DNA of 64,000 nucleotides, from the NCBI GenBank assembly GCA_021201135.1, contig JAJQGT010000025.1:1-64000 (forward strand), written 5' to 3'. Below the pieces are notes generated by a model. That model saw only the letters and a program-made list of their open reading frames with translations. It was not told the origin of the DNA and did not search any database. Positions 19,819 through 58,619 of the stretch are shown here, one piece after another. The DNA is from Oscillospiraceae bacterium. Lineage in GTDB: Bacteria > Bacillota > Clostridia > Oscillospirales > Ruminococcaceae. Position 1 is the first letter of the stretch, and the number at the start of each line of letters is the position of its first letter. Position numbers and translations under genes: made by a program.

Positions 19819-19846
19819 TTGACAAATCGGATTTCCGGGGTATCAT
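19819..19846 (+). promoter_or_regulatory. SOS-type promoter ahead of the phage-derived cassette
   Basis: TTGACA (19819-19824), a 16-base spacer and TATCAT (19841-19846). The box pair, spacer length and following LexA-like box match the promoter at 55094-55121. Confidence 0.75.
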
Positions 19847-19854
19847 TAGATTCA

Positions 19855-19866
19855 GAACAAAAGTTC
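19855..19866 (+). promoter_or_regulatory. LexA-type operator
   Basis: GAACAAAAGTTC fits the Gram-positive LexA pattern GAAC-N4-GTTC. A degenerate second box GAACAAAGTTT follows at 19868-19878. It lies 8 bases after the -10, a position suited to repression. Confidence 0.72.
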
Positions 19867-19878
19867 AGAACAAAGTTT

Positions 19879-20060
19879 CCACGGTGGGATCCCGATATAT
19901 GGGAAACCGCCGTAAAGAACAAAGCCGCCCCTGAGGACGACTTTGTTTCAAAGATTGGAAAAGAAAAAAAGGAGAAATAAAAATATGAATGTTATCAAAA
20001 ACACACAACTGTATTATAGCAAGCTTTCTCCGATTTGTCAAGCACTTTTTTCAGGAAAAT
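19879..20060 (+). other. Leader of the phage-derived cassette
   Basis: A roughly 180-base untranslated leader between the LexA-type box and the first structural genes. It contains a hairpin whose arms are AACAAAG (19918-19924) and CTTTGTT (19941-19947) with extra pairs inside, followed by TTTC; it could attenuate transcription. A ribosome site AAAGGAG then precedes a 34-codon ORF at 19985. Confidence 0.4.
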
Positions 20061-20089
20061 ATGAAATTCGGAGGGATGAATTTGGATAG
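19985..20089 (+). CDS. Possible 34-residue leader ORF
   Basis: ATG 19985 follows AAAGGAGAAATAAAAAT and opens a 34-codon frame ending at TAG 20087. The peptide is polar with a basic end (KYEIRRDEFG) and matches nothing I recognise. It overlaps the start region of the TerS candidate in another frame, so translation of the two may be coupled. It may equally be a remnant with no function. Confidence 0.35.
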   Translation: MNVIKNTQLYYSKLSPICQALFSGKYEIRRDEFG

Positions 20090-20327
20090 GCGGGATATCA
20101 GCGATTCCAACAGGCTCATGGCGAGCGAAATTATAGAAAAGTGCCTCGAGATTCTGAACGATGAGGACAAGCTCCAGAGCGCAAGTGTCTCTCAGCTCAC
20201 CGGCGCGATATCGTCCCTCTCGGATAACTTTCTCGGAGAAAATGAAAGCGCCGCCTGGACGGACGACCCTCTGAGCAAGAGCATTTTTGAACTTGAGAAG
20301 GACCTCAGGAGCGACAAACCGCAGTAA
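20061..20327 (+). CDS. Phage cassette first gene, terminase small subunit candidate
   Basis: An 80-88 residue acidic protein directly ahead of the terminase large subunit, the usual place for TerS. It carries SNRLMASEIIEKCLEIL and a helical middle, but no clear helix-turn-helix, so the TerS role rests on position. Three starts are possible: ATG 20061 (AGGA site), ATG 20076 (too close to GGAGGG) and TTG 20082 (GGAGGG 6 bases upstream, the best spacing). Confidence 0.55.
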   Translation: MKFGGMNLDRRDISDSNRLMASEIIEKCLEILNDEDKLQSASVSQLTGAISSLSDNFLGENESAAWTDDPLSKSIFELEKDLRSDKPQ

Positions 20328-20340
20328 GGGGGGTGAGGGG

Positions 20341-21561
20341 ATGCTCAGTGAGAAGCAGAAAAAGATTTTTGCGTTTGCCGAATCGGACTATGACGCACTC
20401 ATCTGCGACGGCGCAATCCGTTCCGGAAAAACCTCGGTGATGACGGTTGCGTTCGTCGACTGGGCGATGGCGAACTTTTCGGGTCAGCGGTTCGGAATCT
20501 GCGGAAAGACAGCCGACGGTGCGGTGAAGAACATTATCCTGCCGTTCATGTCGATGAGCTATCCCGCAAAGAAGTACCGCATCAGGTGGAAGCCGTCTTC
20601 GAAGGTCATGGAGGTCTCAAACGGTAGCACAAGAAACCTTTTCGAAGTCTTCGGCGGCAAGGACGAGTCGAGCTTTATGCTGATTCAGGGAAGAACTTTT
20701 GCGGGTGCACTCATCGACGAAGTGGCGCTGATGCCGAAGTCGTTTGTTCAGCAGGCGATAGCGAGATGCTCGGTTGAAGGCTCGAAGCTGTGGTTCAGCT
20801 GTAACCCCGAGTCGCCCGAGCACTGGTTCTATCGGGAGTGGATTCTGAAAGCCGACGAGCGCAACGTCCTCTATCTGCACTTCAAGCTTGAGGACAACCC
20901 ATCCCTCTCGAAAAGAATCATAGAGCGCTACAAGAGCTACTACTCGGGAGCCTTCTATGAGAGATACATCGAGGGCAGATGGGTTCTGGCGGAGGGGTTG
21001 GTTTACGAGATGTGTGAAGAATACTTCACAGACGAGGTCCCGATGTGCGGAGAATATTACATTTCCTGCGACTATGGGACGATGAATCCCTGTTCGATGG
21101 GGCTGTGGTGCCTGAAGGACGGCGTTGCGACGAGGATTTCGGAATATTACTACGACGGCAGAGCCGAGAAGAAGCAACTGACGGATGAAGATTACTATCT
21201 GGCACTTGAGGCTCTGGCGGGGGATTTGCCAATCCGATACGTCATCGTCGACCCGTCGGCGTCGAGCTTTATAACCCTGATTCGCAAGCGTGGGCGGTTC
21301 AGGGTGAAGAAAGCGGACAACGACGTGATGAACGGCATCCGCCTGACTGCGGGGTTCCTGAAATCCGGCAAGCTGAAAATCCACAGAAGCTGTAAGAACG
21401 CCATCCGGGAGTTTTCGCTCTACCGTTGGGACGACAAGGCAGGGAACGACAGGGTAGTGAAAGAATTCGACCACGCGATGGACGAGATAAGATACTTTTC
21501 GTCGACGATAATGGCGAAGAAAAGAAACGAGCAGGAGCCGACACGGCTTGCACTGCTCTGA
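20341..21561 (+). CDS. Terminase large subunit (PBSX/Terminase_3 family)
   Basis: A 406-residue packaging motor. The ATPase has Walker A GAIRSGKT (about 22-29) and Walker B GALIDEVALM; the C-terminal RNase-H-like nuclease has YISCDYGTMNP and VIVDPSASSF with the expected aspartates. It pumps DNA into the procapsid through the portal. ATG 20341 is preceded by GGGGTGAGGGG. All catalytic motifs look intact. It is followed by the portal gene, 22 bases on. Confidence 0.93.
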   Translation: MLSEKQKKIFAFAESDYDALICDGAIRSGKTSVMTVAFVDWAMANFSGQRFGICGKTADGAVKNIILPFMSMSYPAKKYRIRWKPSSKVMEVSNGSTRNLFEVFGGKDESSFMLIQGRTFAGALIDEVALMPKSFVQQAIARCSVEGSKLWFSCNPESPEHWFYREWILKADERNVLYLHFKLEDNPSLSKRIIERYKSYYSGAFYERYIEGRWVLAEGLVYEMCEEYFTDEVPMCGEYYISCDYGTMNPCSMGLWCLKDGVATRISEYYYDGRAEKKQLTDEDYYLALEALAGDLPIRYVIVDPSASSFITLIRKRGRFRVKKADNDVMNGIRLTAGFLKSGKLKIHRSCKNAIREFSLYRWDDKAGNDRVVKEFDHAMDEIRYFSSTIMAKKRNEQEPTRLALL

Positions 21562-21583
21562 AAAGAAAGGGAGATTTATTTAA

Positions 21584-22873
21584 GTGTATACATATCAGGA
21601 CTTGGAGAAGGCAAAGAAGGGCGAAAAAGAGCTCAAGGAGTTTTTGCTTGGTGCGGTTGCGGACTATAAGCTTTCAAAAACCTACCGCGACACTCTCGAC
21701 GCTCTTGCCTATTGGCGGAACGAAAACCCGACCATCACGAAGTACCGGAAGCTACTCTATACCGTTTCGGGAAGAGCCGTGCCGGACAACTACTCGGCGA
21801 ACTACCGCCTTGCGTCGAACGTCTATTTCCGGTTCGTCACCCAGACGGTGCAGTATCTCTTGGGATACGGCGCCAGATTTGAGGACGAAGGGACAAAGAA
21901 GCTCCTCGGAGGCGACAGCTTCGACCATTCGCTTCAGGAGGCACTCACGGACGCCCTGAACGGCGGCGTTTCGTATGGATTTATGAACAACGACCGGGTC
22001 GAGGTTTTCGGAGCGCAGGAATTTGTGCCGCTGTATGACGAGGAGACAGGCGAGCTTAAAGCCGGAATCCGCTTCTGGCAACTTGATGTCGACAAGCCGC
22101 TCAGGATTACGCTCTACGAGCTTGACGGCTACACCGAGTACATCCGGCGCAGGGGCGAGGAGCTCGGCGAAATGAAGCCGAAGAGGGCTTACAAGCAGGT
22201 TGTCGTGAAGTCGGACTATTCGGACGAAGTCGTGACAGACGAGAACTACCCGAAGCTTCCGATAGCCCCGCTTTACTCCCCGAGAAAGCAGTCGGGGATT
22301 GTGGGACTGCGTCGGCAGATTGACTGCTACGACCTCATCGAATCGGGGTTTGCAAACGACATTGACGACGCCTCGATGATTTACTGGACGATTTCGAACG
22401 CCGGCGGCATGGACGACATCGACCTTGCACGCTTCGTCGAGCACATGAAGACGGTCAAGGCGGCGGTCATCGAGGACGACGGCGCACAAGCTGAATCCCA
22501 CACAACCGAGGTTCCCTATGCCAGCCGGGAGGCGATGCTCACGAGGCTCGAAAACGAGATGTATCGCGACTTCATGGTCTTGAACCTTGACATGGTCTCG
22601 GGCGGCGCTTCGACCGCAACGGCGATAAAGGCGGCATACGAGCCGATGAACCTCTATTCGAACATGCTCGAGTATTCGGTTCTCAAGTTTGTTCATGGGT
22701 TACTCGAGCTCATAGGCGTCGAGGACACCTGCACATTCAAGCGCGATACCATCGTCAACGAATACGAAAAGGCGCAGACGGAACGGGAAAGAGTCGAAAC
22801 GGCACTTCTTCTGAGAGGGCTTTTCGACGACGAAACAATCAAGGCACTATGTGCGGAAGCACTGGGCATATAA
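21584..22873 (+). CDS. Phage portal protein (SPP1 Gp6-like)
   Basis: A 429-residue portal protein of the SPP1 Gp6 type: an N-terminal helical region followed by TVSGRAVPDNYSANYRLASN and the stem/crown region with SGGASTATAIKAAYEP, a hallmark of this family. It forms the dodecameric channel for DNA entry. The start is GTG 21584 after AAAGAAAGGGAG. The length is near the family norm and there is no frameshift. Confidence 0.93.
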   Translation: MYTYQDLEKAKKGEKELKEFLLGAVADYKLSKTYRDTLDALAYWRNENPTITKYRKLLYTVSGRAVPDNYSANYRLASNVYFRFVTQTVQYLLGYGARFEDEGTKKLLGGDSFDHSLQEALTDALNGGVSYGFMNNDRVEVFGAQEFVPLYDEETGELKAGIRFWQLDVDKPLRITLYELDGYTEYIRRRGEELGEMKPKRAYKQVVVKSDYSDEVVTDENYPKLPIAPLYSPRKQSGIVGLRRQIDCYDLIESGFANDIDDASMIYWTISNAGGMDDIDLARFVEHMKTVKAAVIEDDGAQAESHTTEVPYASREAMLTRLENEMYRDFMVLNLDMVSGGASTATAIKAAYEPMNLYSNMLEYSVLKFVHGLLELIGVEDTCTFKRDTIVNEYEKAQTERERVETALLLRGLFDDETIKALCAEALGI

Positions 22874-22910
22874 ATTGTGTAGAAGAAGTTACACGAGAAA
22901 GGAAAGAAAA

Positions 22911-23495
22911 ATGGCATTGACAAGAAAGATGCTCAGAGAAATGGGCATTACGGATGAAAATGCGGACGCGATTTTCAAGGCTCACTGGGAGACGGTCGAG
23001 GCTCTTAAGGGCTACAAAGCCGAGGTTGAGAGGCTGACAGGTCTGACGGGCGAGCTTGATAACGCAAGGAGCAGTCTTGACGACTACCGGGAGAAATACG
23101 AGGCTCTTGAAAAAGAGTATCAAGCATTCAGGGAGGAGCTTTCGAAGGAGAAGGCAGTGCAGGCTAAGAAGCAGGCAGTGACGGAAATGTTAAGAGAACT
23201 TCACATCCCTGAGGAATGTGTGAACCCTATTTTACATGTTACGGATTTCGACCGCATCGAGCTTGACGAAAGCGGCGAGATTATCGACGAGGAAGCCGTC
23301 AAGGACTCGATACTCCGGCTCTGGTCGGGATTTATCCCGAAGAGATATCTCTTGGGAGCCGAAACGGCGACTCCGCCCCGCAATTCATCCGACAAAGGCT
23401 ACTCGAGGGACGACATAAGAAGGATGTCCCCGAGGGAAATCAACGAAAACTACCCGGCGATCAAGCAATCGCTGAGAGTAAACGATTACGACTAA
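22911..23495 (+). CDS. Phage scaffolding protein (GP20 family)
   Basis: A 194-residue protein whose residues 25-85 form a coiled coil (many E, K, L), typical of minor structural GP20/scaffold proteins. The C-terminal part (SRDDIRRMSPREINENY) is typical of the capsid-interacting region. ATG 22911 follows the leader GAAAGGAAAGAAAA, repeated before the capsid and connector genes. Confidence 0.85.
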   Translation: MALTRKMLREMGITDENADAIFKAHWETVEALKGYKAEVERLTGLTGELDNARSSLDDYREKYEALEKEYQAFREELSKEKAVQAKKQAVTEMLRELHIPEECVNPILHVTDFDRIELDESGEIIDEEAVKDSILRLWSGFIPKRYLLGAETATPPRNSSDKGYSRDDIRRMSPREINENYPAIKQSLRVNDYD

Positions 23496-23520
23496 CTAAA
23501 AGAAAGGAAAGAAAAAATTT

Positions 23521-24360
23521 ATGGCAATATCTACATTCATCCCCGAGCTCTGGAGCGCAAGACTCCTCAATGCTCTTGACAAGGTTCACGTCGCGGCTTC
23601 CCTCGTAAACAGAGATTACGAGGGCGAAATCAAGCAGTGCGGCTCTGCCGTCCACATCAACAGTATCGGAAACATCACCGTTTCCGACTACGAAGCCGAC
23701 TCCGAAATCGGCGACCCTGAAAGCCTTTCTGTCTCCGACAGCATGCTCGAAATCGACAATGCGAAGTACTTCAACTTCCAGATTGATGACGTTGAGCAGG
23801 CACAGGCGGCGGGAAACATTATGGACAAGGCTATGGAGAGAAGCGCCTATGCCCTGAACGACGCGGCGGATGCCTATATCCTCGAGACCTTGGTGAACGG
23901 CGCAGATGACGCAAACGTCATCGGCTCGGACACACCCATCGCTCTCACCGCCGACAACGTCTATGGCTACATTGTTCAGCTTCGACTAATACTCGACAAG
24001 AACAACGTTCCTCACGAGGGCAGAAGCATCGTTCTGCCACCCGACGTCTATGCACTTCTGTTGCAGGATTCGAGGTTCACCGGCTCCGGCAATATGGGCG
24101 AGGAGACCACAAGAAGCGGCTTCATCGGACGAATCGCAGGCTTTGACATCTATGAGTCGAACAACTGCTATTCCGACGGCGAGTGCTACAAGGTCACGGC
24201 ACAGGTTCCTTCGGCTTGCACCTATGCGGAGCAGGTCCTTGAGACCACCGCTTATCGCCCCGAAAAGCGCTTTGCCGACGCAGTCAAGGGTCTTCACGTC
24301 TACGGCGCAAAGGTCACCGACCCGACAGCTATCGCCGTGCTCGTCTGCACCGTAGCCTAA
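23521..24360 (+). CDS. Major capsid protein (P22 coat-like)
   Basis: A 279-residue capsid protein. MAISTFIPELWSARLLNAL and the segment VNRDYEGEIKQCGSAVHI are typical of the P22 gp5-like/HK97-fold group seen in Firmicutes prophages with separate scaffold genes. No protease gene is present, consistent with a scaffold-driven assembly. The start follows the same GAAAGGAAAGAAAA leader. A 12-bp hairpin without a T run follows the gene at 24373-24398. Confidence 0.88.
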   Translation: MAISTFIPELWSARLLNALDKVHVAASLVNRDYEGEIKQCGSAVHINSIGNITVSDYEADSEIGDPESLSVSDSMLEIDNAKYFNFQIDDVEQAQAAGNIMDKAMERSAYALNDAADAYILETLVNGADDANVIGSDTPIALTADNVYGYIVQLRLILDKNNVPHEGRSIVLPPDVYALLLQDSRFTGSGNMGEETTRSGFIGRIAGFDIYESNNCYSDGECYKVTAQVPSACTYAEQVLETTAYRPEKRFADAVKGLHVYGAKVTDPTAIAVLVCTVA

Positions 24361-24372
24361 AACCGGCAGAAT

Positions 24373-24398
24373 GGGATGGGGAGATTTCTCCCCATCCC
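24373..24398 (+). other. Hairpin behind the capsid gene
   Basis: GGGATGGGGAGA and TCTCCCCATCCC form a perfect 12-bp stem with a two-base loop and no T run. It could stabilise the capsid mRNA or mark a cleavage site, raising capsid output over downstream genes. Confidence 0.6.
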
Positions 24399-24429
24399 GA
24401 AAGGGAATTAAGAAAGGAAAGAAAAAAGA

Positions 24430-24828
24430 ATGATTGAAGCTGTTTGCAGGCACATAAGAAACTATTTTATATCCTCCGTTCATGCGGGGAAGTTCACAAT
24501 CTCGGGCGGTGCGCTTATGAACGCCGACTTTATGCGAGACGGCTACTATCTCATCTGGGGAAGCGAATATAGCGACGGCGTGCATCTCTATCCCGACGAC
24601 ACGCTCAAGGACGAGGAGTTTTCCGGGGACATCGCACTTATGAACCCTCCCGAAGAATTTTTAAGCATATGCTCGGAAATCGAAGAGTATATGGCTTCGG
24701 ATATGGCGTCCCCGTCGCCCTATAAAAAAGAGAGCTTCGGCGGCTATTCCTATGAGCTCGAGGGCGGCGATTCGGCTTCGTGGCAGAAGGTATTCGCTTC
24801 GAGGCTCAACCAATGGAGGAAGCTGTAA
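24430..24828 (+). CDS. Phage connector-type protein
   Basis: A 132-residue protein at the position of the head-tail connector or head-completion gene. The segment YKKESFGGYSYEL with a C-terminal WQKVFASRLNQWRKL is a pattern I associate with Firmicutes prophage connector proteins; the exact family is uncertain. Its ribosome leader is the GAAAGGAAAGAAAA repeat. The stop overlaps the next gene (TAATG). Confidence 0.65.
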   Translation: MIEAVCRHIRNYFISSVHAGKFTISGGALMNADFMRDGYYLIWGSEYSDGVHLYPDDTLKDEEFSGDIALMNPPEEFLSICSEIEEYMASDMASPSPYKKESFGGYSYELEGGDSASWQKVFASRLNQWRKL

Positions 24829-25511
24829 TGAGCCTTGTTGAAATCTTTTCGGAGGAATTTTCGAAGCTTACGGTGACCGGGGAGGGATTCACCGAGGGCG
24901 AGACGTTCACGGGCACCCTGATTCTTGACAGCTCCTCGGAGGAGGACTCGAAGCTCGTAAGAAAATACACCCTTACCGTTTCGCCGGATGTCGACCTGAG
25001 CTATGGTGACGTTTTCAAGAGGCTATCCGACGGCTCGGCGTTTCAGATTACAGGAGAAGACACCGGGGAATCGCCCGACATGGCGACCTTCTCCTTCCGG
25101 CAGTTTTCTGCCGAGGACTACGACGGCTCGACCACCGCTTCCGGCTCGCTTACAATCACCGACGGGACTTCTACTGTTATCCTGCCGCTCGGAACGGATT
25201 ACACTATCCAGAAAAAGCGAATCGGGAGCACCGCCACGGCTTCGGACGGCACGACGGTTCTTGACGTTATTGGAAGCAAAATCACTCTCAGCACAGGTGA
25301 AATCAAGCTCATAAAAGCAACGCTCGAAGTGCTTGTGTCCATGATTGAAGCTTCGCCGTTCTTAAGCGTGACATACCCCGACGCTTCAGGGAGCGTCACC
25401 GCAGATTTTCTCTTCGACATTCCGAAGATTAGGGCTTGTGAGTTCGACGACGAGGGCGTCAGCGAATGGTATGCCGTGGACATCACCGCGACGGGAAAGG
25501 AAGTGGAATAA
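24828..25511 (+). CDS. Two-part neck/tail protein of the cassette
   Basis: A 227-residue protein with two regions. Residues 1-98 (LVRKYTLTV, YGDVFKRLSDGSAFQITGE) resemble head-closure or adaptor proteins. Residues about 100-227 (DYTIQKKRIGSTATASDG, SVTADFLFDIPKIRACEFD) resemble a beta-rich tail protein that usually sits just ahead of the hub gene. It may be a natural fusion, or a family I cannot name. ATG 24828 overlaps the previous stop. Confidence 0.6.
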   Translation: MSLVEIFSEEFSKLTVTGEGFTEGETFTGTLILDSSSEEDSKLVRKYTLTVSPDVDLSYGDVFKRLSDGSAFQITGEDTGESPDMATFSFRQFSAEDYDGSTTASGSLTITDGTSTVILPLGTDYTIQKKRIGSTATASDGTTVLDVIGSKITLSTGEIKLIKATLEVLVSMIEASPFLSVTYPDASGSVTADFLFDIPKIRACEFDDEGVSEWYAVDITATGKEVE

Positions 25512-26555
25512 ATGCAGACCCACACGAGCGATTTTAACCCCGACAGCGAGCTAAGGAAAGTCGGGATAAAGATAGCATTCTTGGGCGACTATGAGGGGAT
25601 GGAGCTCGGCACAAAGGACGTTATCAGTCTCGAGCTCACCGAAGGGCTCGACATCACCGGCGATAGCTTCCCGTCGAGGTCGCTGAAGCTCACGGCGATT
25701 GACAGCCTCGGGCTCTCTTTCGCCTCGCAGGAAAAAGACTATGTCAGGGCACGCTTTGAAGTCTTGATTGGAATCAATGACGAATACGTCAGCGTCGGGA
25801 AATACTATATCGACAAGATTGACACGCCCGATTTGGGCTTGACGGTCAGCATCGAGGCTTCCGACAGGGTCGCAACCTATATGGAGAAGTACATGACGGG
25901 ACTTTATACGAGCTCGGCGGTCAGCATGGCGACGCTCATAAATGCTCCGACGGGAGCGCTTGCGGGGCTCGACCTTTACTGTGACGACGCCACGCTCGAG
26001 GCAACCGTCTATCCGAACATGCTCACAACTGTCGATTCGCAGAGAGACTGCCTTCTTAAGCTTGCGCAAGCCGCCGGGATGGCTTCCGTCTGGGTCGACA
26101 GAGCGGGGACGGTTCACTTCGAGAACCTTGCGGGAAGAAGCGGATATTCGGCGGAAATAGCTTCGGGGAGCATACTCGGGTATTCCGGTCTTAAGCTCGG
26201 AAGTCACACCGACTATGTCGAGGTCACCGGCGAGAACGAAGGAAGCTCGTTCGGAGCGTCGTGGGGAACCTATACGAGGGGATGCCTGGCGGAGTTTTTG
26301 GACAACGACTTTGTCGACAGCTCGTTTGCACTGATTGTCGCGTGGAGATACTATGAGGCGAAGAATCAGCGCTTTGAGCTCACTTTAAAGACAAGATGCA
26401 ACCCGGTCTTAGAGCCCGGGGACAGGGTGCTTGTTCGCAAACCCGACGGAAACGAGATAGGGGAGTTCACCCTTGCGTCGCAGAAGATATATTTTGATTC
26501 GGACGGGCTCTCAGCAAAGCTCACGCTTTATGCGGCAAGCCCTACGGACAGTTAA
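25512..26555 (+). CDS. Tail hub-like protein (DUF5048-type)
   Basis: A 347-residue protein resembling baseplate or tail-hub proteins of the gpD/gp27 type: N-terminal beta domains (ITGDSFPSRSLKLTAID, GKYYIDKIDTPDLG), a helical insert, and a C-terminal part LEPGDRVLVRKPDG. The assignment to DUF5048 is from memory of similar proteins. It starts directly at the stop of the preceding gene. It is the largest gene after the capsid module; no tape-measure gene is present. Confidence 0.65.
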   Translation: MQTHTSDFNPDSELRKVGIKIAFLGDYEGMELGTKDVISLELTEGLDITGDSFPSRSLKLTAIDSLGLSFASQEKDYVRARFEVLIGINDEYVSVGKYYIDKIDTPDLGLTVSIEASDRVATYMEKYMTGLYTSSAVSMATLINAPTGALAGLDLYCDDATLEATVYPNMLTTVDSQRDCLLKLAQAAGMASVWVDRAGTVHFENLAGRSGYSAEIASGSILGYSGLKLGSHTDYVEVTGENEGSSFGASWGTYTRGCLAEFLDNDFVDSSFALIVAWRYYEAKNQRFELTLKTRCNPVLEPGDRVLVRKPDGNEIGEFTLASQKIYFDSDGLSAKLTLYAASPTDS

Positions 26556-26565
26556 GGAGGCAGGA

Positions 26566-26826
26566 ATGGCTGACATGATAATCAAAACGGCATCGGTAAT
26601 CTCTGCGCTGACCGTGGCTTCGGGATTTGCCGTGTCGATAGTGAAGTGGTATTTGGGACAGAAGAAGCAGGCGGCGGAAATTCTCAGAATCAAGGAAGAA
26701 AATACGCTTATATGCTTCGCACTCTCGGCTTGCCTCGACGGTTTGGGACAGCTCGGCGCCAATCACGCCGTAACAACCGCCAAGGACAAGCTTGACAAGT
26801 ATTTAAACCAACAGGCTCACAGGTGA
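26566..26826 (+). CDS. Small one-TM phage protein
   Basis: An 86-residue protein with one N-terminal membrane segment (about 6-28), then a charged helix (LGQKKQAAEILRIKEEN). It sits in the lysis region right after the tail hub gene, where holin-accessory or XhlA-like proteins are found. AAGGAGGCAGGA precedes ATG 26566. It overlaps the next gene by one base. Confidence 0.65.
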   Translation: MADMIIKTASVISALTVASGFAVSIVKWYLGQKKQAAEILRIKEENTLICFALSACLDGLGQLGANHAVTTAKDKLDKYLNQQAHR

Positions 26827-27077
26827 TGAAAAAGACAGAAAGAAAGCCTCTCGGGACGATTGACAAAATCTTAATCATTCTCGGAGGCTTCATGGGACTA
26901 TTCACAATAGCGATGATTGTGACATTTTATATAAAAGACGCCGTGCCGGACACCCTCATCACCTGCGTTATGGGTTGCAGTGGAGTCGAGGGAGTCCTCA
27001 CGGCGGCGATAACTATTTCAAAGCAGATTACAAACGGCAAGAAAGATAATCCGGAAGAACAGGAGGAATATAAATGA
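26826..27077 (+). CDS. Holin-like small membrane protein
   Basis: An 83-residue protein with two probable membrane segments (about 11-36 and 43-65) and charged ends (MKKTERKP, KDNPEEQEEYK), the usual form of a class II holin. It lies immediately ahead of the lysozyme gene with a four-base ATGA overlap. GTG 26823 is an alternative start one codon earlier. Holin function is inferred from topology and context. Confidence 0.65.
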   Translation: MKKTERKPLGTIDKILIILGGFMGLFTIAMIVTFYIKDAVPDTLITCVMGCSGVEGVLTAAITISKQITNGKKDNPEEQEEYK

Positions 27078-27715
27078 GCGAATACAAAGGCATAGACGTT
27101 TCAAAATATCAGTCGCCGATGAGGATGGACTATGAGGAACTCAAGGACCTCGGCTACAGCTTCGTTATGGCGAAGGCGGGAAGCCTTAAAGGCAAGGATT
27201 CGGCGTTTGACAGCCACTATTCGAAGGCAAGAGCCGCGGGATTGTCCGTCGGGGCGTATCTCTACAGCTACGCCACAACCGAGGAGCAGGCTTCGACAGA
27301 GGCGAGAATGATGCTCTCGTGGATTAAGGGCAAGAAGCTCACCCATCCGATAGTATACGACATCGAGGACGGCACGCAGAAGGCGCTCGGGCGTGAAAAA
27401 TGCACCGACATAGCGCTTCGGTTCTTAACCGAAATTGAGGACGCCGGTTGCTATGCGATGCTCTATTCTTACGCGAACTTCATCAAGCACTATCTCGATA
27501 TGGATAGGCTCAGGCACTTCGACGTCTGGCTTGCATGCTACACGAGCGAAGAGCGCCGCAAAGCCCTCTACACCTACCCGATTTTGGGCATCTGGCAATA
27601 CTCCTCGTCCGAGGTCCTTCAGGGCGTCTATCCCTCCCGACTCGATCAGGATGTGGCGTATAAGGACTACAGGAGGATTATTGAAGCGAAGGGGTTGAAT
27701 GTTATCAGAAGCTAA
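27074..27715 (+). CDS. GH25 lysozyme, endolysin of the cassette
   Basis: A 213-residue glycoside hydrolase family 25 muramidase. The fold starts KGIDVSKYQ, and catalytic residues are expected in PIVYDIEDG. It ends soon after WQYSSSEVLQGVYPSRLDQDV and has no cell-wall-binding domain, so it is compact compared with most phage endolysins. It has no signal peptide, in keeping with holin-dependent release. It is followed by a strong terminator. Confidence 0.9.
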   Translation: MSEYKGIDVSKYQSPMRMDYEELKDLGYSFVMAKAGSLKGKDSAFDSHYSKARAAGLSVGAYLYSYATTEEQASTEARMMLSWIKGKKLTHPIVYDIEDGTQKALGREKCTDIALRFLTEIEDAGCYAMLYSYANFIKHYLDMDRLRHFDVWLACYTSEERRKALYTYPILGIWQYSSSEVLQGVYPSRLDQDVAYKDYRRIIEAKGLNVIRS

Positions 27716-27744
27716 AAAAAGCCGTCGCGCAGACGGCTTTTTAT
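27716..27744 (+). terminator. Terminator of the phage-derived cassette
   Basis: AAAAAGCCGTC and GACGGCTTTTT form an 11-bp stem with a five-base loop. Confidence 0.92.
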
Positions 27745-55093: not shown

Positions 55094-55121
55094 TTGACAA
55101 AAACAAATTTTCTGCTATCAT
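55094..55121 (+). promoter_or_regulatory. SOS-type promoter of the 63-aa coiled-coil gene
   Basis: TTGACA (55094-55099), 16 bases, TATCAT (55116-55121). The boxes and spacing are the same as at 19819-19846. Confidence 0.8.
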
Positions 55122-55131
55122 TGAAATTGAA

Positions 55132-55155
55132 GAACAAAAGTTCGAACAGAAGTTC
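55132..55155 (+). promoter_or_regulatory. Tandem LexA-type operators
   Basis: GAACAAAAGTTC (55132-55143) and GAACAGAAGTTC (55144-55155) are two abutting GAAC-N4-GTTC boxes, 12 bp apart. The first is identical to the box at 19855-19866. Confidence 0.82.
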
Positions 55156-55178
55156 TAAGATTAACGGAGGTAGAATAT

Positions 55179-55370
55179 TTGAAAGATTTGATTGAGAACT
55201 ACGAAAAAGAAGCGGTAAGACTTGCGGAGCATCTTGAGAAGCTCAAGGCTCAGCTCGAGATTGAAAGAGACGTGAACGAGCGGAAATCCTTGCAAAGGCG
55301 AATCTACGCCGCGGATGTCGAAAGGTTCGAGATTTTGGAGGATATCATCGCCATGCGGAAATATCTTTGA
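55179..55370 (+). CDS. 63-residue coiled-coil protein under SOS-type control
   Basis: Starts with TTG 55179 after AACGGAGGTAG. The protein is an almost continuous coiled coil (YEKEAVRLAEHLEKLKAQLE, then RRIYAADVERFEILEDII), charged and soluble. It resembles small proteins I associate with Firmicutes mobile elements, though the identity is unsure. The tandem LexA-type boxes predict induction by DNA damage. Confidence 0.78.
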   Translation: MKDLIENYEKEAVRLAEHLEKLKAQLEIERDVNERKSLQRRIYAADVERFEILEDIIAMRKYL

Positions 55371-55783: not shown

Positions 55784-56742
55784 TGCTTAAGCTCTATTCA
55801 AAAGACAACATCTCGGGGCTCGTCCTCTCTATGAGACAGCGCGATCGCCTCTGCCATTCGTTTTTATTGGTCGGAGACAAGGGCGTCGGCAAGAAGACGG
55901 CGGCGAAATATATGGCGCTCGAGATTCTTTGCAGAAGTCAGGGAGAAGTCCCTTGCGGAATCTGCAAGGACTGCCGGATGATTCTGAACGACGCACACCC
56001 GGACGTCATAACCGTTTCGGCGAGTGGAAAGTCGGGCAACTATCGCGCCGACGACCTCAGACCTCTCATCAGCGACGCATATATTGCCTCGAACGAGGGC
56101 GGTTACAAGATTTATATCCTGCCTGACATCGACAAGGCTCTCCCAGCGGCGCAGAATACTCTTCTCAAAATTTTCGAGGAGCCGCCCGACCACGTCATCA
56201 TCATTATGACCGCCGAAAAGCGGGAGAACGTCCTGCCGACGGTTCGCTCGAGGGCGATTGTGATAAATGTGCCGGAAGCTTCTAGAGAAGACACGATTGC
56301 GGCTCTTTCGGAGAGAAGAATTTCGGAAGAAGACGCAGAGCGGGCTTACGGGGTCCTTGGCGGCAATATCGGAGCGTGCATTGAATATTTGAACGGCGGA
56401 AGCGACGAGCTCTATTTAAGAGTAAAATCGGCGTCGGAGGCGTTAGCCAAATCCGACGAGTACGCACTCCTGAAAATCCTGAACGAAGCCGACCGTGCAA
56501 CCGCAACGGAACTCACAACCGAGCTCTCGGAGGTCCTCTCCGAAGCAATAAAGCGCAAACAGGGCTACGAAGACGCAAGCTTCTATTCAAACGAAGCCCG
56601 GAAGCTGAGCGAAACGATAAGCGGCAAAGCACTCATGACTATGTACGAGCGAACCCTCGAGGCTTCGCAGAAGCTTAAGGGCAATGCTGGAGTTCCACTC
56701 ACCATGGCGGATTTGTGCGGGAAGTTGGTTGGGAGAATATAG
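55783..56742 (+). CDS. holB: DNA polymerase III subunit delta prime
   Basis: A 319-residue clamp-loader subunit. Walker A-like GDKGVGKKTA (31-40), zinc cysteines C50, C58, C61 and C64, and LLKIFEEPP are typical of HolB. It is part of the complex that loads the beta clamp. The gene order darA-holB-ricT matches B. subtilis yaaQ-holB-yaaT (without yaaR). Confidence 0.92.
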   Translation: MLKLYSKDNISGLVLSMRQRDRLCHSFLLVGDKGVGKKTAAKYMALEILCRSQGEVPCGICKDCRMILNDAHPDVITVSASGKSGNYRADDLRPLISDAYIASNEGGYKIYILPDIDKALPAAQNTLLKIFEEPPDHVIIIMTAEKRENVLPTVRSRAIVINVPEASREDTIAALSERRISEEDAERAYGVLGGNIGACIEYLNGGSDELYLRVKSASEALAKSDEYALLKILNEADRATATELTTELSEVLSEAIKRKQGYEDASFYSNEARKLSETISGKALMTMYERTLEASQKLKGNAGVPLTMADLCGKLVGRI

Positions 56743-56788
56743 ACTTATATATAAGAAAGGACCCCGCCAAGTGACGGGGAGAACGGAA

Positions 56789-57649
56789 ATGACTGAAATA
56801 ATCGGAGTAAGATTTAAGAGCGTCGGGAAGGTCTATTACTTCTCGCCGGACGGGGTTGAGATTCCTGTCGGGACGAAGGTAATTGTCGAGACCGCCCGGG
56901 GCGTTGAGTGCGGGAGCGTTGTGCTCGCCAACAAGATGGTCGAGGACAGTGAGATTGTTCCGCCTCTCAAAACTATCATAAGAATCGCCACAGAGGACGA
57001 TTTCAAGCAGATTGAACGGAACAAGATAAAAGAGGTCGACGCCGCCGACATCTGCGAGAGAAAGATTGCCCACTATGGGCTCAAGATGAACCTTGTCGAC
57101 GTTGAGTGCACCTTCGACAACTCGAAGCTCCTCTTCTACTTCACTGCGGAGAACCGCGTTGACTTCCGCGAGCTCGTAAAGGACTTAGCGTCCGTCTTCC
57201 ACACGAGAATAGAGCTTCGGCAGATTGGCGTCAGAGACGAAGCCAAGATGATGGGAGGTCTCGGAGTTTGCGGCAGGCAGTTCTGCTGTGCGAGCTTCCT
57301 CGGCGAATTCCAGCCGGTATCAATCCTCATGGCGAAGGAGCAGGGCTTGTCCCTCAACCCGACAAAGATTTCGGGAGCCTGCGGAAGGCTCATGTGTTGC
57401 CTCAAGTACGAGCAGGACGGCTATGAGGAGCTCCTCAAGATTACCCCCAAGGTCGGTGCACTTGTCAACACTCCCTCCGGCAGGGGAACCGTCACAGATG
57501 CAAACCTGATTTCCGGGAAGATTACCGTCAAGCTTGACGGCGCCGAGGGCACAACCGTCTTCGAGCGGGACAAGCTGACCGTCATCAAGGATGCGGTTAT
57601 AAAGGTCTCCCGTGAAGAGCTCAAGGCTCTCAAGGATTTAGAGAAATAA
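56789..57649 (+). CDS. ricT: RicT/YaaT, PSP1-domain iron-sulfur regulator of RNA maturation
   Basis: A 286-residue PSP1-domain protein. The conserved cysteines GVCGRQFCCASFL and GACGRLMCCLKYEQ match the Ric complex subunit RicT, which in B. subtilis binds iron-sulfur clusters and steers RNase Y and sporulation phosphorelay output. ATG 56789 follows GGGGAGAACGG; an in-frame reading from inside holB is not used. Genes for RicA and RicF are not in the window. Confidence 0.92.
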   Translation: MTEIIGVRFKSVGKVYYFSPDGVEIPVGTKVIVETARGVECGSVVLANKMVEDSEIVPPLKTIIRIATEDDFKQIERNKIKEVDAADICERKIAHYGLKMNLVDVECTFDNSKLLFYFTAENRVDFRELVKDLASVFHTRIELRQIGVRDEAKMMGGLGVCGRQFCCASFLGEFQPVSILMAKEQGLSLNPTKISGACGRLMCCLKYEQDGYEELLKITPKVGALVNTPSGRGTVTDANLISGKITVKLDGAEGTTVFERDKLTVIKDAVIKVSREELKALKDLEK

Positions 57650-57692
57650 GCCGTTCGGGCACACACTTTGCTTCGCTATGCTCCGCAAAGTG

Positions 57693-58046
57693 CTACATTC
57701 CTAAACTCACGGCGAGTGCTTGATTTATTTTGTCCATAGAGGTCGAATCGAGGACTCCCATCCGCTCTTTCAAGCGCTTCTTGTCTATCGTGCGAATCTG
57801 CTCCAGAAGAACAATGCTGTCCTTCGCAAGCCCGCAGGACGAGGACTCAATTTCGATATGCGTCGGCAGGTGGGTCTTTTCCCGTTGACTTGTGATAGCG
57901 GCGGCGATGACCGTCGGCGAATGACGGTTTCCCACATCATTCTGAACTATAAGTACGGGACGGATTCCGCCTTGTTCCGACCCGACCACAGGGCTCAGGT
58001 CAGCATAATAAATCTCTCCTCTGTATACCGGCACCGGCATTGACAT
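57693..58046 (-). CDS. MazF/PemK-family mRNA interferase toxin
   Basis: A 117-residue MazF (EndoA/NdoA type) with YRGEIYYADLSPVVGSEQGG and RPVLIVQND, and ITSQREKTHLPTHI; it would cut mRNA at specific triplets. No antitoxin ORF is seen ahead of it: the 200 bases upstream have no MazE or CopG-like frame. GAAAGGAATGG precedes ATG 58046. The toxin alone is a known arrangement in some Clostridia, with the antitoxin elsewhere. Confidence 0.9.
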   Translation of the reverse strand: MSMPVPVYRGEIYYADLSPVVGSEQGGIRPVLIVQNDVGNRHSPTVIAAAITSQREKTHLPTHIEIESSSCGLAKDSIVLLEQIRTIDKKRLKERMGVLDSTSMDKINQALAVSLGM

Positions 58047-58183
58047 AAAATCACCATTCCTTTCGATGAATAAACGCTTTTGTACTCATATTGTTGACGA
58101 CATCAAAGCCGTTTATTCAGCCCCGTCGGGGAGAAAACGGAAGCTTGGTTCATTTTATGCGGGGAAGGGATTGGGGGTTAAAA

Positions 58184-58207
58184 TAAAAAAGCCTCTTGAC
58201 AAAGAGG
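58184..58207 (-). terminator. Sense terminator of type I locus 2
   Basis: Read on the minus strand, CCTCTT (58207-58202) and AAGAGG (58197-58192) close a TGTC loop, then CTTTTTT. The antisense -35 box TTGACA (58196-58201) lies in its loop and arm. Confidence 0.8.
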
Positions 58208-58224
58208 GATGGCTGACGTATAAT
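58196..58224 (+). promoter_or_regulatory. Antitoxin RNA promoter, locus 2
   Basis: TTGACA (58196-58201), 17 bases, TATAAT (58219-58224). Start near 58228-58231. Confidence 0.88.
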
Positions 58225-58229
58225 AATGA

Positions 58230-58333
58230 CATGAGGAGACAAAACTGTTCCAGCAGTTTGGAGTACAACCTCTAAAATTCAAGAACTTGAAGATTGACCG
58301 CCAACCGCTATACTATGTTGCGGTTATTTCTTT
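58230..58333 (+). ncRNA. Antitoxin antisense RNA, locus 2
   Basis: Predicted from the promoter at 58196-58224 to a terminator AACCGC/GCGGTT (58303-58325) followed by ATTTCTTTG. It covers the 3' part of the broken toxin mRNA. Confidence 0.65.
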
Positions 58334-58433
58334 GCCTGGAAAACTCCGATGACTCCGAATGATAACACAAGTCACTGTGCCATTGACTTGAGGCGAGCAG
58401 ATTCAGCAGTGCAATGACTTCTAAAACCGACAC
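58324..58433 (-). pseudogene. Frameshifted type I toxin, locus 2
   Basis: GTG 58433 after GAGGGAGGTGATAAC opens MSVLEVIALLNLLAS, then the frame slips. Another frame holds SFGVIGVFQAKK and a stop at 58324, the expected hydrophobic-basic end of a holin-like toxin. The 110-base distance is not a multiple of three. Uncorrected, the reading goes to 58308. The toxin has probably lost function; its RNA elements are intact. Confidence 0.72.
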
Positions 58434-58490
58434 GTTATCACCTCCCTCTGAAAAGATAAGAGGTTTACCGTCACTCCTCATGTCATAAAC

Positions 58491-58519
58491 ATTATATCAC
58501 AAACTAAAAATATTGCCAA
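58491..58519 (-). promoter_or_regulatory. Toxin promoter, locus 2
   Basis: On the minus strand TTGGCA (58519-58514), 17 bases, TATAAT (58496-58491). Confidence 0.8.
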
Positions 58520-58525
58520 TAAAAA

Positions 58526-58561
58526 TAGCCCAGATGGTCAAGTAGCCATTGGGCTGTTTTA
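58526..58561 (-). terminator. Terminator of the 58620 gene
   Basis: AGCCCAATGGC and CCATCTGGGCT on the minus strand, followed by ATTTTTATT, which is shared with the -35 region of toxin locus 2. Confidence 0.78.
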
Positions 58562-58619
58562 TAGAAGTCGTGATAAAGGACTATTTTGAAATTATCTTTA
58601 GAATCAGAATATGTAATAA

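Follow-up and report, generated by a model that had tools for sequence, protein, structure and literature searches.

We have identified a compact cassette of phage-type genes in an Oscillospiraceae bacterium, on a stretch of 64,000 nucleotides (positions 1 to 64,000 of contig JAJQGT010000025.1, assembly GCA_021201135.1; hereafter the window), and consider it likely to be a domesticated, vertically inherited cassette resembling a gene transfer agent (GTA). A promoter at 19819 and a hairpin at about 27744 bound the cassette, whose genes are all on the plus strand. It holds phage-derived head and packaging genes, with no replication or integration genes among the cassette and nearest flanking genes, and is inherited vertically under purifying selection. 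A GTA-like cassette appears to be kept in every genome of the genus that was examined, as one of two very different versions. Its tail was shed stepwise through traceable gene fusions, and the cassette seems to have been exchanged once while its slot stayed filled, which suggests that selection keeps the function rather than particular genes.

All of the named cassette genes are present, open and co-directional. The first encodes a TerS-like small terminase subunit lacking a DNA-binding region (20061..20327, start possibly 20076), which has no family match and was recognised via its relatives; its longest frame opens at 19989, inside a leader that shows two overlapping start codons. Next comes the large terminase TerL (20341..21561; phrog_2, E=1.4e-45), in which R27-T31, D126-E127, D244, D304 and D381 are invariant across 14 aligned rows selected from the 31 genomes of the genus. 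These residues, which we take to be the ATPase and nuclease motifs, are intact. The head genes comprise an SPP1 gp6-like portal protein (21584..22873; SPP1_portal, E=1.5e-30), a capsid scaffolding protein with a coiled-coil-like N half and a conserved C half (22911..23495; Phage_scaffold, E=6.3e-9), and the major capsid protein, or coat (23521..24360; phrog_267, E=5.6e-71; Pfam Phage_capsid_4 and P22_CoatProtein). A head-tail connector follows (24430..24828), whose match to phrog_1236 (E=0.002) is weak alone and firmer via relatives, and then T1, a head-closure protein p1 fused to p3 (24828..25511; p1 profile E=2e-10, p3 profile E=2e-31), and T2, a tail tip or hub-like protein (25512..26555; phrog_13879, E=1.1e-12; phrog_1887, a tail family, E=1.7e-4; phrog_6616, E=0.0015). 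The T2 profile had no match among solved structures. The lysis genes encode two small membrane proteins and a GH25 lysozyme, the putative endolysin (27074..27715; GH25, E=8.7e-31). Of the membrane proteins, h1 (26566..26826) is holin-like by position and matches a gene in the lysis region of a resident prophage (52% over 29 residues), and h2 (26826..27077) is holin-like with matches to phrog_38777 (E=6e-10) and the holin family phrog_526 (E=0.07). A terminator-like hairpin with a T run, read from the sequence, closes the cassette (27717..27744). Scanning of the cassette genes turned up no integrase, repressor, replication, tape-measure, tube or protease gene, and the closest flanking genes scanned encode two proteins that match no Pfam family, a TetR-type regulator, an isochorismatase and a glycogen phosphorylase (glgP). 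In 2-kb steps the G+C content of the cassette is 0.50-0.54, within the 0.39-0.55 of the window, so that its composition is that of the window. An earlier note on this DNA had described about ten intact, packed phage genes, with host-like base composition, one terminator and the same modules missing, and our results agree with that description throughout.

The window lies on contig C4 of a 32-contig, 2.33 Mb assembly, designated G000 in the comparisons. A TerL relative occurs in all 31 genomes of the genus, each with a single good match, at 50-100% identity overall and at 50-99% when the window genome is set aside; in G320 this match is a fragment at a contig end, and a second, weak match (27%) turns up in G000 and G314. 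The window's coat type is present in 16 of the 31 genomes and another coat type in the remaining 15 (split across two contigs in G320), with no overlap between them. The genomes form groups A (11 genomes, the window's among them), B (5) and C (15). Upstream of the cassette, all 11 group A genomes have the isochorismatase flank, and downstream of it nine have glgP; in G309 and in G304, where two contigs share the cassette, the contig ends before the glgP position. No flanking att-like repeat could be sustained: the sole 15-nt candidate has its right copy in just 3 of the 11 group A genomes. Integration at tRNA-Ser(GGA) was considered and rejected, since the cassette lies on the 5' side of that gene, the usual side being 3', and no att repeat holds.

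Cassette divergence follows that of the host. Distances between concatenated cassette proteins and RpoB distances correlate at r=0.90 in groups A/B (15 of 16 genomes) and r=0.77 in group C (13 of 15), and none of 2000 permutations was as high in either case. Cassette and host trees have 7 of 12 splits in common in A/B and 5 of 10 in C, with shuffles reaching three at most in each. Median dN/dS within group A was 0.154 for TerS, 0.047 for TerL, 0.069 for the portal, 0.218 for the scaffold (pair maximum 0.73), 0.132 for the coat, 0.095 for the connector, 0.147 for T1, 0.130 for T2, 0.228 for h2 and 0.070 for GH25. Pairs with dS of 0.05-1.5 were kept, from 16 of 55 pairs (T1) to 55 of 55 (TerL). 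These values are in or near the range of the flanking host genes (isochorismatase, 0.090; glgP, 0.042, from 8 genomes), and no internal stops were found in the genus TerL or coat matches listed. The cassette thus does not appear to be decaying. The earlier note had read the stretch as a domesticated phage unit that should sit at the same locus in relatives, descend vertically and show dN/dS well under 1; the conserved locus, the host-tracking divergence and the purifying selection all favour that reading.

The two cassette versions differ greatly. Direct profile comparison of A/B with C gave a probability of at most 1.1% for portal, scaffold, coat, connector, T1 and T2, so that a shared recent ancestry of the whole cassettes is not supported; TerS gave 27%. 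The TerLs of A/B and C are about 50% identical, as are TerLs of unlike phages, and the window TerL is closer to some phage TerLs (Dulem virus 33, 59%; IMG/VR, up to 63%) than to those of group C (50-54%). The portals fall in different Pfam families. Both coats match Pfam Phage_capsid_4 (E=2.9e-11 and 3.7e-13) and have weak matches to phrog_1650 and phrog_544 in common, and are therefore distant relatives, so that the two cassettes look very different without being wholly unrelated. A host tree was built from RpoB of 28 of the 31 genomes by a quick search, with SH-aLRT support only and a midpoint root. Support was 100 for A, 93 for B (4 genomes) and 98 for A+B, with the C-type genome G300 adjoining A+B, and cassette type requires one change of state on this tree. 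Most likely the A+B line acquired the A/B type once and lost the C type, a direction that we infer.

The A/B cassette appears to derive from siphophages through loss of the tube and the tape measure. Among related phages, Dulem virus 33 (PP511792, complete at 40 kb) carries an annotated integrase and tape measure and has homologs of TerL, portal, scaffold and connector (E=8e-29) and, weakly, of the head-closure protein; its major tail protein matches the group B gene c47, and its coat gave no match to the cassette coat profile. The IMG/VR contig L497, of which 19 of 28 kb were seen, carries homologs of coat, portal, scaffold, connector and head-closure protein in cassette order; a minor head gene separates its portal from its scaffold, and its tape measure has 857 residues. 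Phage D6E is 49% identical to the cassette in TerL and 48% in the coat. Intermediate arrangements occur in group B (G298 is left out of this tail map), in which G217, G299 and G322 have the order connector, p1, p2, tube (c47), p3, T2 and no tape measure. In the window, T1 is p1 joined to p3, with p2 and the tube gone, and in G297 p2 is joined to p3, again with the tube gone; the tube was thus lost twice, each time leaving an in-frame fusion. In L497, the gene directly behind the tape measure shares a match to phrog_1194 with the p3 part of T1 (E=6e-4 in L497, 5e-5 in T1), and the tail-tip gene shares one to phrog_6616 with T2 (E=2e-11 in L497, 0.0015 in T2); T2 and the tail-tip gene compared directly give a weak 12% probability. 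From these matches T1 therefore joins a neck protein to a distal-tail protein. Pfam gave nothing firm for group B T2, c47 or the extra genes that follow T2 in G217 (L036:15788-17776). One of these extra genes encodes a 385-residue protein without a Pfam family that recalls a receptor-binding or tail-fibre protein solely in the style of its repeats.

The small terminase has been reduced as well. The C-terminal part of the window TerS matches group B TerS (tblastn E to 2e-17), and this part is kept in group A, while a helix-turn-helix-like stretch that aligns in all four group B TerS proteins seen (the G322 contig ends before TerS) is absent from 10 of the 11 group A proteins, including the window's. 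Of three group B proteins scanned for Pfam helix-turn-helix families, those of G299 and G297 gave sub-cut-off matches and that of G217 none.

Upstream of TerS lies a conserved control region. A sigma-70-type promoter, TTGACA-16-TATCAT (19819..19846, plus strand), is visible in 10 of the 11 aligned group A genomes, the G308 stretch having ended early. It is followed by an operator (19855..19879, plus strand) composed of a perfect GAACAAAAGTTC at 19855-19866 and a one-mismatch copy at 19868-19879; we take the GAACAAAAGTTC-type box to be the LexA/DinR-type consensus. In the stretch of up to 1.5 kb before TerL, a perfect GAACNNNNGTTC is found at all 11 group A loci and at none of 14 group C loci, and in group B at all three loci that have 1 kb or more of sequence (G322 offered 72 nt, and G298 was outside the scan). 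The window contains three perfect boxes against 1.23 expected, and 13 of 100 shuffles reach three, so that the number is not significant alone, but a perfect box precedes TerL throughout group A. The other two perfect boxes follow a second promoter of the same layout (55094-55155), with identical hexamers and spacing at 55094-55121, after which comes a small open frame of about 63 residues with a TTG start at about 55181 (region 55094-55370), possibly encoding a damage-induced small protein. Between the operator and TerS is a highly constrained leader of about 143 nt with a hairpin (19917..20060, plus strand; fold z=-2.45). Its median pairwise identity is 93% in 10 of the 11 group A genomes (G309, unmatched by the search expression, was left out) versus 56% at TerL fourfold sites, and it had no match in Rfam at gathering scores.

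We propose that one clade of the genus captured a relative of siphophages of the Dulem virus 33/L497 type, and that in this clade the captured cassette would stand in for a different, probably older one. It would have kept the genes for packaging, head, neck, tip and lysis, and lost those for integration, replication, the minor head protein, the tape measure, tail completion and the tail tube. Derepression of the operon, probably by DNA damage, would lead some cells to build small capsids that are tailless or very short-tailed. TerL, together with a TerS lacking its DNA-binding region, would fill these capsids with unselected cell DNA, and the holin and GH25 lysozyme would release them for transfer. 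One ComEC-type uptake gene is present; such genes are common and not diagnostic, no more than permissive for DNA uptake.

Several observations weigh against this proposal. Five of the 12 A/B host splits are unshared, and G271 goes with G302 in the cassette tree but with the window genome in the RpoB tree, so some recombination does occur; the host tree, moreover, is that of a single gene. The TerS of G308, in group A, keeps its DNA-binding region. The group A cassettes show no receptor-binding protein, and none was sought elsewhere in the genome. No box was found upstream of lexA or recA, the only SOS genes inspected in the window genome, which leaves LexA unproven as the binder. The box of the LexA-type promoter in the earlier note is present, and the cassette may be induced by DNA damage. 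The particle, its DNA and its transfer are predicted from the genes.

The alternative that fares best, although we consider it unlikely, is a domesticated particle without gene transfer, in the form of a PBSX-like altruistic or DNA-disposal device by which damaged cells would package or cut their DNA and lyse. The lack of receptor-binding and tail-tube genes in group A and the conservation of GH25 are consistent with such a device, but no killing tail is encoded, and the constraint on portal, coat and TerL is about as strict as that on GH25, whereas a pure lysis device would need none of the three. More improbable still is a capsid-forming satellite that borrows the tails of a resident prophage; a head and neck are encoded without a tail, and the window genome has at least one tailed prophage, yet no integrase was found among the genes scanned, att repeats are missing, the position is fixed in group A genomes and divergence tracks the host. 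The decayed, drifting prophage that the earlier note offered as its alternative is scarcely credible; related phages with the missing modules do exist, but the cassette is present genus-wide, the listed TerL and coat matches are free of stops, median dN/dS of 0.05-0.23 lies near that of host genes, and the leader is more constrained than fourfold sites. That note also held that domestication would be refuted by full-length phages from which the cassette differs only by deletion of the missing modules. Such phages do literally exist, but this is no refutation, because the deletion product has since been conserved.

Relatives of the cassette coat genes were also found in a prophage of the window genome (G000:C26). 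This prophage encodes a separate set of TerL, portal, HK97-type capsid (Pfam Phage_capsid, E=8e-71), ClpP-type protease and head completion genes, and its tail genes include a major tail protein (phrog_88) and a tape measure (phrog_1272). An insert that separates the last neck gene from the tail tube gene consists of the C-terminal half of a scaffold and two coat copies (G000:C26:155012-157046, equivalent to L033:15013-17047), and it recurs in the same prophage in another species (G309:C32:54574-56604, L385). The scaffold relative is 104 residues long and lacks the coiled-coil half, and the coat copies are about 57% identical to the cassette coat. Between the two prophages, 16 backbone genes are 88-99% identical, versus 84% for the short scaffold, 84% for coat copy 1 and 62% for copy 2; dS is 0.91 for coat copy 1 (omega 0.10) and saturated for copy 2, versus 0.25-0.69 for the backbone, and the insert genes have therefore been turned over or exchanged faster. 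In the G309:C32 copy the tube and tape measure are merged in a single 647-residue frame (56625-58568), a sign of internal deletion, and that copy may be defective. The insert is missing from three related prophages (G309:C16, G304:C58 and G305:C4; TerL 57-83%), in which the neck and tube genes are adjacent, with the DNA joints seen against G304; a TerL fragment at the contig edge of G316:C33 and weaker matches were left out of this comparison.

In the coat tree the prophage copies group with the group A cassettes (100/100). An approximately unbiased (AU) test rejected a cassette-only clade without the prophage coats (p=0.0016), and did not reject placement of these coats as merely sister to group A (p=0.10). 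An origin of the prophage coats in another phage is not supported by this tree and test. The scaffold tree was too short to decide, and the prophage scaffolds are not placed inside group A. In a pattern-limited search of IMG/VR, one prophage coat found at most 41% identity over full length and one 33-residue match at 53%. A phage thus appears to have taken up genes from the cassette lineage and to have kept their frames open. Tentatively, and with slightly less than even confidence, we suggest that the insert may be an anti-GTA weapon, whose reduced scaffold (the C-terminal half presumably binds coat) and coats would poison or redirect assembly of the cassette capsid and so protect the phage genome from cutting and packaging. 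Sabotage or hijacking is the natural reading and no more than that: the insert is in two of five related prophages, all five in group A hosts, its G+C is 0.42 versus 0.53 for the cassette, and its branch is long. If it is true, the cassette would be an active rival of phages and the insert a natural anti-GTA system. Full-text literature searching returned no earlier report of conflict between phages and GTAs, at which these coat and scaffold copies hint and which could be tested at the bench. Interference with capsid assembly between elements has a precedent in the PLE satellite of Vibrio cholerae, which is reported to remodel a phage coat (PMC10945586); there the satellite acts on the phage, whereas here a phage holds parts of a host cassette.

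In the family at large, a TerL profile match (E of 1e-30 or lower) was found in 216 of 396 genomes drawn, some of the matches being ordinary prophages. Twenty stretches were picked by hand from these matches, of which 19 have TerL, and 13 of these 19 show the compact C-type order TerL-portal-coat-T2 with no long gene between; L592 is phage-like with a 1499-residue gene, and five are unclear or longer. These hand-picked loci give a lead rather than a survey. A recent report describes GTA-like packaging in several families, with the locus identified only in Faecalibacterium (PMC12946183), and C-type cassettes could be the missing loci for that packaging. A compact C-type cassette is seen in Ruminococcus albus and other Ruminococcus records (L156, L170, L173 and L174), and is a candidate source of the 4.6 kb packaged fragments that the same report gives for R. 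callidus (PMC12946183). In another genus of the family, L572 (G002:C2) and L578 (G199:C27) have a coat relative in a compact head cluster, which in L572 ends by eye in an amidase-like gene, and may represent a further GTA-like cassette. The TerL family is also kept in two very small genomes of 0.7-0.8 Mb (L579 and L580, from G068 and G280).

Among known systems, the alphaproteobacterial GTAs RcGTA and CcGTA have a TerS without specific DNA binding and siphophage tails. The cassette is like them a domesticated head and packaging cluster, and differs in having neither tube nor tape measure. PBSX of the Gram-positive Bacillus subtilis is a GTA-like element that packages host DNA, has a contractile tail and kills; the cassette, without sheath, tube or tape measure, encodes no complete contractile tail. 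Unlike phage satellites such as capsid-forming phage-inducible chromosomal islands, it shows no integrase among the genes scanned, no att site and no sign of mobility. It has portal, scaffold, connector and head-closure homologs in the same order as Dulem virus 33 and L497, but these are both of siphophage type, with a tail tube, tape measure and minor head protein and, in Dulem virus 33, an integrase. Full-text searching yielded a single directly relevant paper, published in 2026, on FpGTA of Faecalibacterium (PMC12946183). According to that paper, FpGTA forms particles of about 40 nm with no identifiable tail and about 9 kb of DNA, its TerS has no obvious DNA-binding domain, and it occurs in all twelve Faecalibacterium genomes its authors examined (PMC12946183). 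It also describes a second operon with baseplate, tail-fibre and lysis genes in some strains (PMC12946183), whereas here the lysis genes are inside the single cassette and the group A cassettes show no tail-fibre gene. The cassette would act as a GTA with little or no tail, as FpGTA appears to; we claim likeness to FpGTA in gene content and description rather than membership, the cassette being read from its genes. Within those terms, it resembles FpGTA as described there in its compact operon of TerS, TerL, portal, scaffold and coat, in having lysis genes and no replication genes, and in its Oscillospiraceae/Ruminococcaceae host (PMC12946183).

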